64,000 bases of DNA from an uncultured Bacteroidia bacterium (lineage in GTDB: Bacteria; Bacteroidota; Bacteroidia; Bacteroidales; ML635J-15), in the NCBI GenBank assembly GCA_902800045.1, contig CADCCZ010000001.1, positions 973,346 to 1,037,345 of the forward strand, written 5' to 3'. Numbering within the stretch: the first letter of the stretch is position 1; each line of letters begins with the position of its first letter. Positions 34,818 through 40,522 of the stretch are shown in pieces. Below the pieces are notes generated by a model. That model was not told where the DNA came from and ran no database searches. It saw nothing but the letters and a program-made list of their open reading frames with translations. The position numbers were made by a program, and so were the translations under genes.

Positions 34818-35639
34818 ATGAAGAATATAACTTTTGCATTAATAGCAGCCATAACGTTTTTGGCATCGTGCTCGGGGAATGGCGACAAACCAGCCGCAAC
34901 AGAGACCGTCGAACCCGAAATTCAGAAGAAAGACACCCTGATTGCAATACAGGACTGCCAGCACAAAATGCCGACATACATTTTTGCAGGTCAGAACGAC
35001 AAACTTTTACATGAGGTTTTGCCTGGCGACTACATCGACAACTCAATAAATGTGTTTTTGCTGGAGCGTGGCGACAAGAATATTCTCTTTGATACAGGAC
35101 TTGGCACATCGCAAAACGGCCATCTGCTCGAAAAACTGGACTCTATAGGCCTTCAGCCTGACGATATAACCGACATTTGCATAACCCATTTCCACAGCGA
35201 CCATATTGGCGGACTTCTTACTGCCGACGGTGAGGCTGTTTTCAAAAATGCCAAGCTGCACTTTTCAGACTTGGAATTGGAAGTTTGGACAGTAGGTGTA
35301 TTAAAAGACAACGAAACAGTTGACAAGATGCTTAAGGCATACGATGGCAGATACGAAACGTTTCAGGCCGGCGACACAATTATCGATGGGATTGTAACCA
35401 TTGCAGCTTACGGACATACGCCAGGTCATACCATGTACGACATTGGCGAAACGCTGATTGCCGGTGACATCATGCACGCGATTGACCTGCAAATCGAACA
35501 TCCGGAAATTTCCGCCATATACGACTTTAACCCAGTAGAAGCCAGAGAAACACGAATTTCGGTATTAGAAACAGCCCGCAAAAACCACAAGCCAATGGCA
35601 GGAATGCACTTCCCCGCTCCTCACATCATAAAACTATAG
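34818..35639 (+). CDS. Metallo-beta-lactamase-fold lipoprotein
   Basis: A 273-residue MBL-fold hydrolase with a lipoprotein signal ending in FLASC (Cys18). The metal motif is ITHFHSDHIGG, followed by AAYGHTPGH and LIAGDIMHAID, which supply further ligands. Relatives include lactonases and other hydrolases of quorum-type or sulphur compounds. The natural substrate is not clear. Unlike most family members it is a lipoprotein, so it acts outside the cytoplasm. It is probably in one transcript with the alcohol dehydrogenase and msrC (gaps of 10 and 2 bases). Confidence 0.88.
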   Translation: MKNITFALIAAITFLASCSGNGDKPAATETVEPEIQKKDTLIAIQDCQHKMPTYIFAGQNDKLLHEVLPGDYIDNSINVFLLERGDKNILFDTGLGTSQNGHLLEKLDSIGLQPDDITDICITHFHSDHIGGLLTADGEAVFKNAKLHFSDLELEVWTVGVLKDNETVDKMLKAYDGRYETFQAGDTIIDGIVTIAAYGHTPGHTMYDIGETLIAGDIMHAIDLQIEHPEISAIYDFNPVEARETRISVLETARKNHKPMAGMHFPAPHIIKL

Positions 35640-36103: not shown

Positions 36104-36478
36104 ATTTAGACGTATTTTTTGCGGCTTATTGTCCGCACGCAATAAGATTATCGTATTGTTAATGTAGCGACGCAAAGCATTGCGTCGCTACATATTTTTA
36201 CGGAAATCCGACAGAAAAACGGCAACAAAAATCATCCCCCGTCCATAATTTTGCAAAAATCGAAATTATCTGTTATAACAAACTATAAATTTACCATAAT
36301 AAACTAACAAAATTATTTCATAAAATACAAATATTTTGACAGTTATGATTGCTTAAAAATTTCTCGATTTTTTCTTGTCTACATAAAATTTAACATTTAA
36401 TATTGCATAGAACATTTAATGGAGTTTGTATTATGAACACATACATATATACATACAACTCTCTGCATGGCGGATAGG
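36104..36478. other. Intergenic region with perfect dispersed palindrome
   Basis: No gene is supported. At 36163-36192 lies the longest palindrome of the dispersed family: TGTAGCGACGCAA and TTGCGTCGCTACA (13 bp) around AGCA. The rest is AT-rich without a clear -7 box. A 14-codon frame (36433-36477) ending in Gly-Gly is too short to call. Confidence 0.7.
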
Positions 36479-36642: not shown

Positions 36643-37062
36643 ATGAAGAAAATAGTTTTTTTGGCAGCCGCTTTAATGGCTAGCATGTTTATATTGACAT
36701 CGTGTGAAAAGGAAAATGTTGCAGAAATGGCAGAAAACAGTGTAAAAAAAGCGCCAAACTTTGTATTGATGCAGAAGGGATACGTAGATGAAAACGGATA
36801 TGTTGGAGATTTGTTCGCTGACGAAAACAACCCAACAAACAGATACTGCGTAATCTACAAACAACAACCGCAGACCAGAGCTCATCAACAACCGAAACCA
36901 TTCGACGGAAAATTATACAAGAAATACACCCCAGAGGGATATGAAGAGGGATACGAATGTAAAGGAGATCCAACTAATTGTTGGAACAATCCAAATGGAG
37001 TAAGTTTCCCATCCGATGCCAAGCCTATTATCATTAGAGAAAAAGCTAATACTGGAAAATAA
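36643..37062 (+). CDS. Small cysteine-containing lipoprotein of unknown function
   Basis: A 139-residue protein with a lipoprotein signal ending in ILTSC (Cys21). The mature part starts EKENVAEMAENSVKK and holds three further cysteines: C69 (NRYCVIY), C106 and C113 (YECKGDPTNCW). The C-terminal third is rich in Pro, Gly and Tyr. The place before propeller-type genes and the NVAEMA-like start recall NVEAL peptides of Bacteroides, but the likeness is weak. It is followed by a terminator-like hairpin and then two large exported proteins with CxxC thioredoxin-like ends. The function is not known. Confidence 0.8.
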   Translation: MKKIVFLAAALMASMFILTSCEKENVAEMAENSVKKAPNFVLMQKGYVDENGYVGDLFADENNPTNRYCVIYKQQPQTRAHQQPKPFDGKLYKKYTPEGYEEGYECKGDPTNCWNNPNGVSFPSDAKPIIIREKANTGK

Positions 37063-37082
37063 TTATTAAACAATTAAACACA

Positions 37083-37114
37083 AGCGAGGCACAATCGTGT
37101 CTCGCTTATTTTAC
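37083..37114 (+). terminator. Hairpin after the small lipoprotein gene
   Basis: AGCGAG pairs with CTCGCT, extended by CAC/GTG around AAT, and followed by TATTTT. A GTG inside it (37097) cannot be the start of the next gene. Read-through to that gene, 10 bases on, is plausible because no new promoter is seen. Confidence 0.65.
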
Positions 37115-37123
37115 ACAAAAGGT

Positions 37124-38776
37124 ATGAATAGAAAACTATTATTATTATTATCGTTTGTTACACTCATTTCGTGTAAGAATAATACGCAGCAAAACGACAA
37201 ATTTGTTTTCGACTACGAAGTATATAAGACCCAGAAAATTCTTCTTGCAGAAGAAGACAGAGGCAAAAAAATATTGTCATGCAAACAAATTGTCAATATT
37301 GACAACCAAAATGTTATCATTATGAACATAAACCGCAACTATTTGTCTTTTTACGATCTTGAAAGCGGGGAAAAAATACACGACATATTTGTTGATTCCT
37401 TAGGTAGGATGAATACTTTTTATTATATTGGGAAAGACAGTATTTTCGTTGGTTATTATAACAATAAAGGAGGAATGGAATTAGAATCTCCACAATCCTT
37501 GCGTCTTACCGACTGGGATGGCAATGTAAAAAAAATATATGGATACGAAGTCGATCAAGAAGAACTTAATAACTATAAATATGATATTAATAAACTCATT
37601 CCTCCATTGAATGATGAATTTGTTTTATGCCGCAACAACATAATCTCACAAAGCACATATTATGATTCATACGGTTTATTAGGGACAAAAGAATTCATTG
37701 ATAATCCTCTCCCATTAGGAATCCGTATGGATACGAAAGAAAACAAATACCATATTTCAAAGCATAGAAAATATGCAGATATAAAGGAAGGCATATATTA
37801 TCCTACTTATATATTAACTCGTGTAAAGAAATCTGCAAATGACTTACCGATATTTAGATACCCATATTCATCAACTGCATTAGAGTGGGATTTTGAAAAC
37901 GACAGTATAATTGAACATTATTTCAAATCCTCACTAATCGACACCATAATGCCACTTTCACATCCTGCAGAATACGACCAAGAACTTCCATACTCATATG
38001 GAGAAATTGAATACGATGAATACAACCAAGTATATACAAGTTCAATATACTTCAATAGCGAAACATATGGAGAAATTAAACATGGACTCATATTTGCAGA
38101 CAAGAACTTCAAATATTTAGGAGAAATGTTCGACAACAAATTCTGGCCGTCCGCATCCAACAAGGAGATGACACTAAACATACGAAAGGAAAACGATTCG
38201 ATTATAACAATTAACTACCTAAAGTTAGTCAAGACTGACAAAGATTACAACAAGTATATTGACTCATGCAGGAATGTTCTACTAATTATGAAGCAGAATC
38301 AAGAGAATAAAAAGAACACATTGATAAACGGCTGTCCATCAATCAACTTTGTTAAGTCACAAATGGAAATTAAGGAATCCTCATATAAAATTCTAACTCT
38401 ATATGGAGAAGGTTGCATAGGATGTGACATGATCACATTACAAACCTTATACGACAATCGTGAGGTGTTAAACAAGGTGCCATTATACATCATAGTTTCA
38501 AATACAAATCCGAGTGAATATATGCAAAAATACGAGCTGACCTACTACGACAAAGTTGTAATTGACTCTACATGCATAATGAAAAACATAGCAAACACCA
38601 GCAGTCTTTTGAATCCGAGGATAACTATAGTAGAAGATGGCATGGTAACCTTAGACACAATTTATCAAGCAGACGCAATCGAAGACAAACTTCTGCCGCA
38701 AATCACAGGACCCGATGAACATACAAAATATGCATTAACCGAAGATGGAGAAGTTATAGTTACCTATACATATTAA
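37124..38776 (+). CDS. Lipoprotein: propeller-like domain plus C-terminal thioredoxin-like domain
   Basis: A 550-residue lipoprotein (signal MNRKLLLLLSFVTLISC, Cys17). Residues about 30-400 are rich in beta strands with repeated motifs like DLESGEKIHDIFVDS and LTDWDGNVKKIYGYEV, in keeping with a beta-propeller of the Bacteroidetes 6-bladed kind. From about 415 comes a thioredoxin-like fold: strand KILTLYGEG, active-site C431-I-G-C434, helix, strand PLYIIVSN, then LNPRITIVEDG with a possible cis-proline. The codons are AT-rich, unlike nearby housekeeping genes. The partner gene downstream has the same order of domains. The exact function is unknown; redox activity is inferred from the CxxC. 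Confidence 0.75.
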   Translation: MNRKLLLLLSFVTLISCKNNTQQNDKFVFDYEVYKTQKILLAEEDRGKKILSCKQIVNIDNQNVIIMNINRNYLSFYDLESGEKIHDIFVDSLGRMNTFYYIGKDSIFVGYYNNKGGMELESPQSLRLTDWDGNVKKIYGYEVDQEELNNYKYDINKLIPPLNDEFVLCRNNIISQSTYYDSYGLLGTKEFIDNPLPLGIRMDTKENKYHISKHRKYADIKEGIYYPTYILTRVKKSANDLPIFRYPYSSTALEWDFENDSIIEHYFKSSLIDTIMPLSHPAEYDQELPYSYGEIEYDEYNQVYTSSIYFNSETYGEIKHGLIFADKNFKYLGEMFDNKFWPSASNKEMTLNIRKENDSIITINYLKLVKTDKDYNKYIDSCRNVLLIMKQNQENKKNTLINGCPSINFVKSQMEIKESSYKILTLYGEGCIGCDMITLQTLYDNREVLNKVPLYIIVSNTNPSEYMQKYELTYYDKVVIDSTCIMKNIANTSSLLNPRITIVEDGMVTLDTIYQADAIEDKLLPQITGPDEHTKYALTEDGEVIVTYTY

Positions 38777-38798
38777 CAAATAATACATAAAGTTTTTC

Positions 38799-38828
38799 CG
38801 CCGCAGCCTCAAACTGCGGCGTTTTTTT
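38799..38828 (+). terminator. Terminator, copy 1 of a repeated type
   Basis: CGCCGCAG pairs with CTGCGGCG around CTCAAA-type loop, followed by seven T. The flanking bases AAAGTTTTTC are the same as in the terminator at 40400. Confidence 0.9.
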
Positions 38829-38894
38829 GCATCAATTCCTTGCTTAAACAAACCGAAATAGTTATTATTGCAACGAATTTATAAATATGATAAT

Positions 38895-40391
38895 ATGAAC
38901 AGAATCTCCGCAATGTCACTTTATTTTAAACAACCTATTTTTAAGATAGCAATACTATTTTTATTTATTTTTCTTTGTTTGGATCTATCATCTCAAACTT
39001 TCTCCGTTTCTCCCAAAGTGGAACTTGAGAAGTGGCAAAGCACGGAATCTTATTCTTTTTATGATAGATTTCAGAGCGCGAACAAAACAATTGTACCTAT
39101 GAGGCTTCAGTTTTCTGAGAAAACAGAAGATACCGTACTTCTTCTTATTATTGACAGTGCATTAAACGATAGCAAGCTTTATTTTATTAGACCAACAGGG
39201 CGATTAAGCGTTTACGAGGACTATTATTTGGGAGCGGAAATGCCAGACGGAGAAATCCTTGTAATGTCACAGTTTTATATATATAGGACAAAAAAAACAG
39301 GTCAAGTTCTTGTTGAAGATAAAAGAATAAGGCTCAAGGATGATTGTAATTTTATTTCTAGTCTTGATGGTAAGATTGGAGGGAACAGAGTGCTACTAGC
39401 AGATACTTATAACGATACTCGCAAAGGAAGACCATATGATATTATAAGTTTAAAAGTATTCAACATGAAAACTAGGTTGGTTGAAAGATCTGCCAATTTA
39501 GATATAGGAAATGGCATATTGATGTCACATATAAGATTAGACATGGTGGCAAACTCCAATGACTATGTTGCAGTTTCGAGCCCATTACTAGGTGAAGTGT
39601 ATGTAATGAACAACAAACTTAAAGTTATTGACACGATAGTAGTTGATTATCCACCTATCCGACGCACCAAGCAGCTCCTTGATTCTATATTACCAGACAA
39701 AGTATTGCTTGAAAACTATCCAAATGCACATCTTAATCTTCGCATAATGAATAAGCACTCTTTTCATTTAAGGCCTAAGATAAATAAGATAGCTTTTGTA
39801 GGTAATGATCTCCTCTACATTGAAGTCCCAGTTGAGGAAGACTCGTATAGCGGACGTCATATTGATTTTGTGTATTCTATACCATTGAAGAAATTTCTTA
39901 ACGATAGTGGAAAAATAAATAATAATAAGGAAATATTATTATCACAACCTCTTATTTTCAATGGTTCTAACACTATAACGATTTCAGACTCGTTAGGAAA
40001 CGATGGAATTTATCATTATTATTATAAAGTTACGACTATCAGTGATTACAATCCTAGTGTAGCTCCAATCCTCGATAGAACAAAATATCCTCCGATTTCT
40101 TCACTTGAAACAATATTCGACACGTCAGGAATACAATACGACTACAAGGACTTTGACTACATAATGTTTGCCGATGTTGGGTCGTGCAGTCATTGCCGTT
40201 ATGGAAGTATGTATGGGAAAATAATGGTTATACATGTCGAGGAAAACCTTGGTGCGCTAAGTTTATCAAATAAAAATCTGCACAAGAAGAAATATGAACT
40301 TATGTTCAACTTTCCAAAAGTATTCTTTGTTGAAAAAAAGATATTGGATCCCAGCATAAAGATAAACTGCATATACAAGATTGACAAGTAA
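38895..40391 (+). CDS. Exported propeller-like protein with C-terminal CxxC domain
   Basis: A 498-residue protein with a signal peptide (FKIAILFLFIFLCLDLSSQ), not lipidated. The long N-terminal part is strand-rich with propeller-like turns (KLYFIRPTGRLSVYEDYY, VYVMNNKLKVIDTIVVD). The C-terminal part holds C431-S-H-C434 in FADVGSCSHCRYG, then IMVIHVEEN and FPKVFFVEKK, which fit a short thioredoxin-like fold with cis-proline. The CxxC lies at the same residue numbers as in the gene before it. A TATTATTG box at 38863-38870 excludes a TTG start at 38868. ATG 38913 is another possible start. No named family recognised. Confidence 0.75.
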   Translation: MNRISAMSLYFKQPIFKIAILFLFIFLCLDLSSQTFSVSPKVELEKWQSTESYSFYDRFQSANKTIVPMRLQFSEKTEDTVLLLIIDSALNDSKLYFIRPTGRLSVYEDYYLGAEMPDGEILVMSQFYIYRTKKTGQVLVEDKRIRLKDDCNFISSLDGKIGGNRVLLADTYNDTRKGRPYDIISLKVFNMKTRLVERSANLDIGNGILMSHIRLDMVANSNDYVAVSSPLLGEVYVMNNKLKVIDTIVVDYPPIRRTKQLLDSILPDKVLLENYPNAHLNLRIMNKHSFHLRPKINKIAFVGNDLLYIEVPVEEDSYSGRHIDFVYSIPLKKFLNDSGKINNNKEILLSQPLIFNGSNTITISDSLGNDGIYHYYYKVTTISDYNPSVAPILDRTKYPPISSLETIFDTSGIQYDYKDFDYIMFADVGSCSHCRYGSMYGKIMVIHVEENLGALSLSNKNLHKKKYELMFNFPKVFFVEKKILDPSIKINCIYKIDK

Positions 40392-40399
40392 AGTTTTTC

Positions 40400-40429
40400 C
40401 GCCGCAGCACACAACTGCGGCGTTTTTTT
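40400..40429 (+). terminator. Terminator, copy 2 of a repeated type
   Basis: The same stem CGCCGCAG/CTGCGGCG with a seven-base loop and seven T as the one at 38799, at the same distance class after its gene. A degenerate half of the dispersed palindrome (GCATTGCGACGCTA) follows at 40441. Confidence 0.9.
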
Positions 40430-40522
40430 GCTGCGTATATGCATTGCGACGCTAAAATTTTCTTAACAGCGATTGCACATTCATATTAAATGCTTACCTT
40501 TACGGCAAATTTTTCATCAAGA

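Follow-up and report, generated by a model that had tools for sequence, protein, structure and literature searches.

Three adjacent genes for small or exported proteins with conspicuous cysteines raise the question of whether they make up a single redox locus of the bacterial envelope or whether only some of them belong together. The genes lie in a window of 64,000 nt, the whole stretch of DNA analysed here, which is part of the 3.2 Mb genome of an uncultured gut Bacteroidales bacterium. Relatives with the same genes are also uncultured Bacteroidales, many of them of ruminant gut origin according to their record titles.

The genes of the locus

The original prediction had named three open reading frames and their cysteines, all of which we found in place on the forward strand. 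The first open reading frame, P1 (36643-37062, +), encodes a small lipoprotein of 139 aa with the lipobox cysteine C21 and the cysteine pair C106-x6-C113. A gap with a terminator- or attenuator-like hairpin (37082-37107, +; 11-bp stem and a short T run) separates it from P2 (37124-38776, +), a lipoprotein of 550 aa composed of a propeller, a linker and a thioredoxin-like domain. A strong intrinsic terminator (38799-38829, +; 8-bp GC-rich stem and T7) stands 3' of P2, and P3 (38895-40391, +), encoding an exported protein of 498 aa with C431-S-H-C434, is a separate transcription unit with its own intrinsic terminator at the 3' end (40400-40430, +), the stem arms being those found after P2. None of the three proteins matched a Pfam or NCBIfam family above cut-off, and the Rfam search of the region gave no match. 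P2 was read from the ATG at 37124, with a GTG further up, and P3 from the ATG at 38895, with a TTG further up. That CxxC falls on residue 431 in both proteins, a point of the original prediction, is a coincidence, because P2 and P3 do not align and the numbering hangs on the choice of start.

Further upstream in the window, positions 34818-35639 encode a lipoprotein-like protein with a metallo-beta-lactamase fold, for which the top NCBIfam match is an AidB-type lactonase (E 2e-34, below cut-off). Between this gene and P1, an almost perfect inverted repeat of 14 bp with a T run behind it (36162-36193) is probably the terminator of a GAF-domain gene.

Domain structure of P2

The AlphaFold2 model of P2, calculated from a 20-sequence alignment, has a mean pLDDT of 86.5 and consists of a propeller (residues ~29-370), a helical linker (375-413) and a thioredoxin-like domain (~418-530). 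Its first structure match is 3s9j, a DUF4221 structure, with Z 23.7 and an rmsd of 3.5 over 317 residues (VIA-align), followed by 4raa with Z 16.4, while eukaryotic propellers crowd near 14. In profile-profile comparison P2 matched three DUF4221 proteins with 99% and E 2.5e-18 (hhalign). The Pfam model for DUF4221 (PF13970) found none of 20 P2 members at E up to 1, so P2 shares the propeller fold and a detectable homology with this family and misses its gathering cut-off.

In the C-terminal domain of the model the elements follow each other as E421-426, H432-444, E454-459, H463-469, E478-481, H485-490, E499-504, E507-513 and H516-528. This is the alternating strand-helix order of a thioredoxin-like domain: CIGC (431-434) lies at the N-terminal end of the first helix, which follows the first strand, and a proline loop precedes the last two strands. 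The assignment rests on this order and on a profile match to the thioredoxin oxidoreductase 8t4c (E 6e-5), the NPR at 497-499 being called cis-Pro-like by its motif; a match to AhpC-TSA is weak and none of the curated thioredoxin families reaches its cut-off on P2. The propeller plus thioredoxin lipoprotein of the original prediction is thus borne out by the model and by the matches to 3s9j, DUF4221 and 8t4c.

P2 has a signal peptide and the lipobox LISC with C17 and is therefore predicted to be lipidated. C17 and CxxC are invariant in the 20 aligned homologues and NPR is strictly or almost strictly kept. As CxxC is invariant in 20/20 homologues of P2, with identities as low as 21%, and in 6/6 homologues of P3, down to 28%, the motif is more than chance, and a CxxC that is not conserved in homologues, named in the original prediction as a refuting outcome, did not occur. 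P2 was detected in 19 of 100 relative genomes, nearly all from the same genus, and was not found on plasmids.

Besides these full-length proteins there are shortened P2 relatives without CxxC (L003, L025-L028, L034-L039), sometimes in tandem, which have no P1 neighbour; one is encoded in the same genome as the window (G000:C2:379505-380674). They often adjoin a glutamyl-tRNA synthetase-like gene, and several have an exported protein of 121-128 aa upstream in place of P1.

P1 and the conserved gene pair

P1 contains four cysteines, C21 in the lipobox LTSC, C69, C106 and C113, and its signal peptide and lipobox cysteine predict a lipidated protein. In a chosen set of ten relatives C21, G55, G89, C106 and C113 are invariant, conservation outside a few residues is poor and the spacing of the cysteine pair ranges from 6 to 9. 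The predicted structure (pLDDT 58) is too weak to judge. We also considered P1 as a member of the NVEALA peptides, which was ruled out as the Pfam model matched neither P1 nor any of 12 relatives. Small exported proteins commonly carry cysteine pairs, and the role of thiol substrate or carrier first suggested for P1 is a candidate role that fits the data.

A small lipoprotein with a cysteine pair proved to be a conserved neighbour of P2, as had been anticipated. Such a P1-like protein, with a C-x6-9-C pair, is encoded upstream in 15 of 22 loci in which P2 bears CxxC and in 1 of 13 loci without CxxC (Fisher p 0.001; the loci are not independent, and as most of them come from one genus the counts overstate independence). 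The 15 loci were counted by hand, the same locus from two collections being merged, and include one (L018/L058) with one gene in between; in all others P1 is directly upstream. Seven CxxC-bearing P2 loci have no adjoining P1 gene, one of them at a contig edge. A second Bacteroidales family (L029), the Cryomorphaceae (L070) and L071 also have the pair, with P2 identities down to ~22%, so that the P1-like neighbour reaches out to the Flavobacteriales. In three distant loci the ORF ranked first by a profile of mature P1, from which the signal peptides had been removed, was the small one upstream of P2, with within-locus E values of 2.5e-4 in the other Bacteroidales family, 0.01 in the Cryomorphaceae and 1.7e-5 in a further MAG. 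At L071 (3907-6174), the one exception among the loci without CxxC, the P2 homologue has lost the motif and the P1-like protein upstream retains CYGASRNC, which means that the partnership can persist without redox function. The unit is the P1-P2 pair and not the trio.

The hairpin in the gap between the two genes has a fold z of -6.9 against shuffles in the window, and several relatives have strong hairpins of differing sequence in the same gap. It may raise the level of P1 over that of P2.

The genome of the window contains a second P2 copy on G000:C2, which is preceded by a P1 copy that is 50% identical and has no in-frame signal peptide. The P1 paralogue at L008 (9341-9661) has a conserved ECINDPTNC and no signal peptide in frame, and is followed by an intact P2 paralogue.

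A possible two-gene redox module

The fold of P2, its invariant CxxC, the invariant cysteine pair of P1 and the conserved gene pair are all computed here. To explain them we propose, with about even confidence for and against, that P1 and P2 constitute a two-gene extracytoplasmic thiol-disulfide module with P2 as the putative enzyme and P1 as its client. Judged by their lipoboxes both proteins would be exported and lipidated, the DUF4221-type propeller of P2 might be where P1 docks, and the thioredoxin domain, tethered by the linker, would exchange disulfides with C106 and C113, so that the pair of P1 is either kept reduced or given its correct bond. P2 would then probably be re-reduced by the DsbD of the same genome, which is encoded with its N-terminal, membrane and CxxC C-terminal parts. 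As DsbD is present and a search of the genome for VKOR gave no match, a reducing role is favoured but not proven. P1 is probably in excess over P2, since the terminator-like hairpin stands between the two genes.

P1 could also be a redox shuttle between DsbD, or another source, and the thioredoxin domain of P2, in which case the propeller would hold a different envelope protein, the actual substrate. The conservation of the pair and the co-occurrence of the cysteines would fit this equally well, the presence of DsbD agrees with it and the position of P1 before the terminator-like hairpin would suit an abundant carrier. However, the poor conservation of P1 beyond a few residues would be unusual for a carrier that has to fit several partners and seven P2 genes have no adjoining P1, which is why we regard a shuttle as unlikely.

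Alternatively, P2 might bind P1 as a ligand or as a peptide of the cell surface that serves display, sensing or competition, a role which NVEALA peptides may also have, with the thioredoxin end only guarding P2 or the complex against oxidation. NVEALA loci hold several unlike small exported peptides beside several propellers, and the P1-like gene kept at L071 after the loss of CxxC would also be explained. Against this, CxxC is invariant in all 20 full-length relatives and shortened forms that lack CxxC also lack a P1 neighbour, making a mere ligand improbable as well. That the adjacency is neutral, with a common small lipoprotein gene co-inherited within the genus beside an unrelated lipoprotein gene, would agree with the origin of most loci from one genus and with the P2 genes that have no P1, but is very hard to reconcile with the recurrence of the pair in L029, L070 and L071, where similar small proteins are top-ranked and P2 identities fall to ~22%.

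P3 as a probable later arrival

P3 has a signal peptide without a lipobox, and Gln34, located after it, is invariant among the homologues and fits the Q-rule for signal peptidase I substrates of Bacteroidetes (PMC5837995). In the original prediction P3 was a paralogue of P2 with the same propeller-thioredoxin layout. This did not hold: hhalign gave a probability of 1.5% for the whole proteins, and the propeller halves and C-terminal halves compared separately also failed (0.3% and 1.8%). The profile of P3 showed no detectable similarity to DUF4221 proteins, propellers or thioredoxin sets and thus supports neither domain, and no P3 relatives were found in viral contigs.

The search for the trio in other genomes, also suggested at the outset, did not find it again, as P3 is present in G005, G009 and G025, three further genomes from this genus, but away from P2. 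A second P3 copy with 68% identity (G000:C1:1218627-1220069) shares its flanking genes with the single copy of G005 (flanks 89 and 95% identical). Since this shared, older syntenic locus is elsewhere in the genome, the P3 of the window is best read as a duplicate that was probably dropped behind P2. The stem arms of the terminator behind P2 are identical to those behind P3 and occur nowhere else in the window, which fits an insertion at that point. P3 therefore probably stands outside the P1-P2 module as an unrelated later arrival.

A single redox locus of all three proteins, with P2 and P3 as paralogues that split roles, would account for their adjacency on one strand, for the invariant CSHC of the P3 homologues and for the fact that two distant P3 homologues have a small exported C-x7-C protein of their own directly upstream in a parallel layout. 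In view of the missing similarity between P2 and P3, their separation in three genomes, the strong terminator between them and the syntenic P3 locus elsewhere, it is highly unlikely. The arrangement of P3 with a C-x7-C neighbour resembles that of P1 and P2 by analogy only.

In four genomes of the genus an exported C-x7-C protein related to this neighbour is encoded head to head with a thioredoxin-reductase-like (TrxB-like) gene carrying CATC (L116 401-1986, L117 1420-3012, L118 396-1989 and L121 1342-2995), probably as one inherited arrangement.

Comparison with known systems

A close parallel in gene arrangement is found in NVEALA loci (PF14055). The P2 profile matched a DUF4221 protein on a contig with three NVEALA peptides, and loci of this kind combine small cysteine-containing peptides with several propellers (DUF4221, DUF5128, TolB-like) and with a lipoprotein bearing CxxC, in many cases together with DUF1573 and sometimes with MauE/DoxX. 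The C-terminal half of P2 matched the separate thioredoxin-like lipoprotein of such a locus with 95% and E 6e-8 (hhalign). The two halves of P2 thus correspond to separate, neighbouring lipoproteins, which suggests that propeller and thioredoxin work jointly. Both systems have small exported cysteine proteins beside propeller and CxxC thioredoxin-like parts; in NVEALA loci these parts are separate, whereas they are fused in P2. P1 differs from NVEALA peptides by its lipobox, and the genome of the window gave no match to an NVEALA protein. The pattern C-x-G-x(3-6)-C was considered as a motif common to all these small proteins. Compared with residue shuffles it is enriched in the P1 type (7/15, shuffle mean 0.5) and in the P3-partner set (6/8, close relatives), but in NVEALA peptides it is at the level expected by chance (2/18, shuffle mean 1.8) and it was therefore not used as a link.

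Gut Bacteroidota have both NVEALA peptides and DUF4221 propellers; our literature search outside subscription journals found no paper on NVEALA and no functional work on either. A wider reading, conceivable but only tentative, sees in P2 a fused and minimal version of an envelope system that is widespread in the Bacteroidota, with a propeller lipoprotein to hold a small exported cysteine-pair protein and a thioredoxin domain to set its disulfide; P1-P2, P3 with its C-x7-C neighbour and the NVEALA loci would then be client-specific versions.

Like the DUF4221 proteins (PF13970; 3s9j, BVU_1028), P2 is a six-bladed propeller lipoprotein, but it adds the linker and the thioredoxin domain, which are absent from the DUF4221 proteins read here. 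With thioredoxins of the TlpA/ResA/StoA type it shares an exported thioredoxin fold with CxxC, but it reaches no curated thioredoxin family cut-off; the thioredoxins of NVEALA loci match StoA weakly. The original prediction knew of no described system with this architecture, which is right only in part, as a fusion of thioredoxin and a six-bladed propeller in one chain is known from NHLRC2 and plant SOQ1. In the solved structure of NHLRC2 a substrate cleft was proposed between the thioredoxin and the NHL propeller, and no conserved neighbouring genes were found in bacteria (PMC6107167). NHLRC2 has an N-terminal thioredoxin with CCINC and an NHL propeller, whereas P2 has the propeller first and CIGC, which places it outside that family. 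The domain order and the conserved partner, and with them a DUF4221-like propeller fused to a thioredoxin with an adjoining conserved cysteine-pair lipoprotein, appear to be new. As P2 fuses two components that are otherwise neighbours and keeps one cysteine-pair partner, the pair offers a compact two-protein system for direct redox tests.
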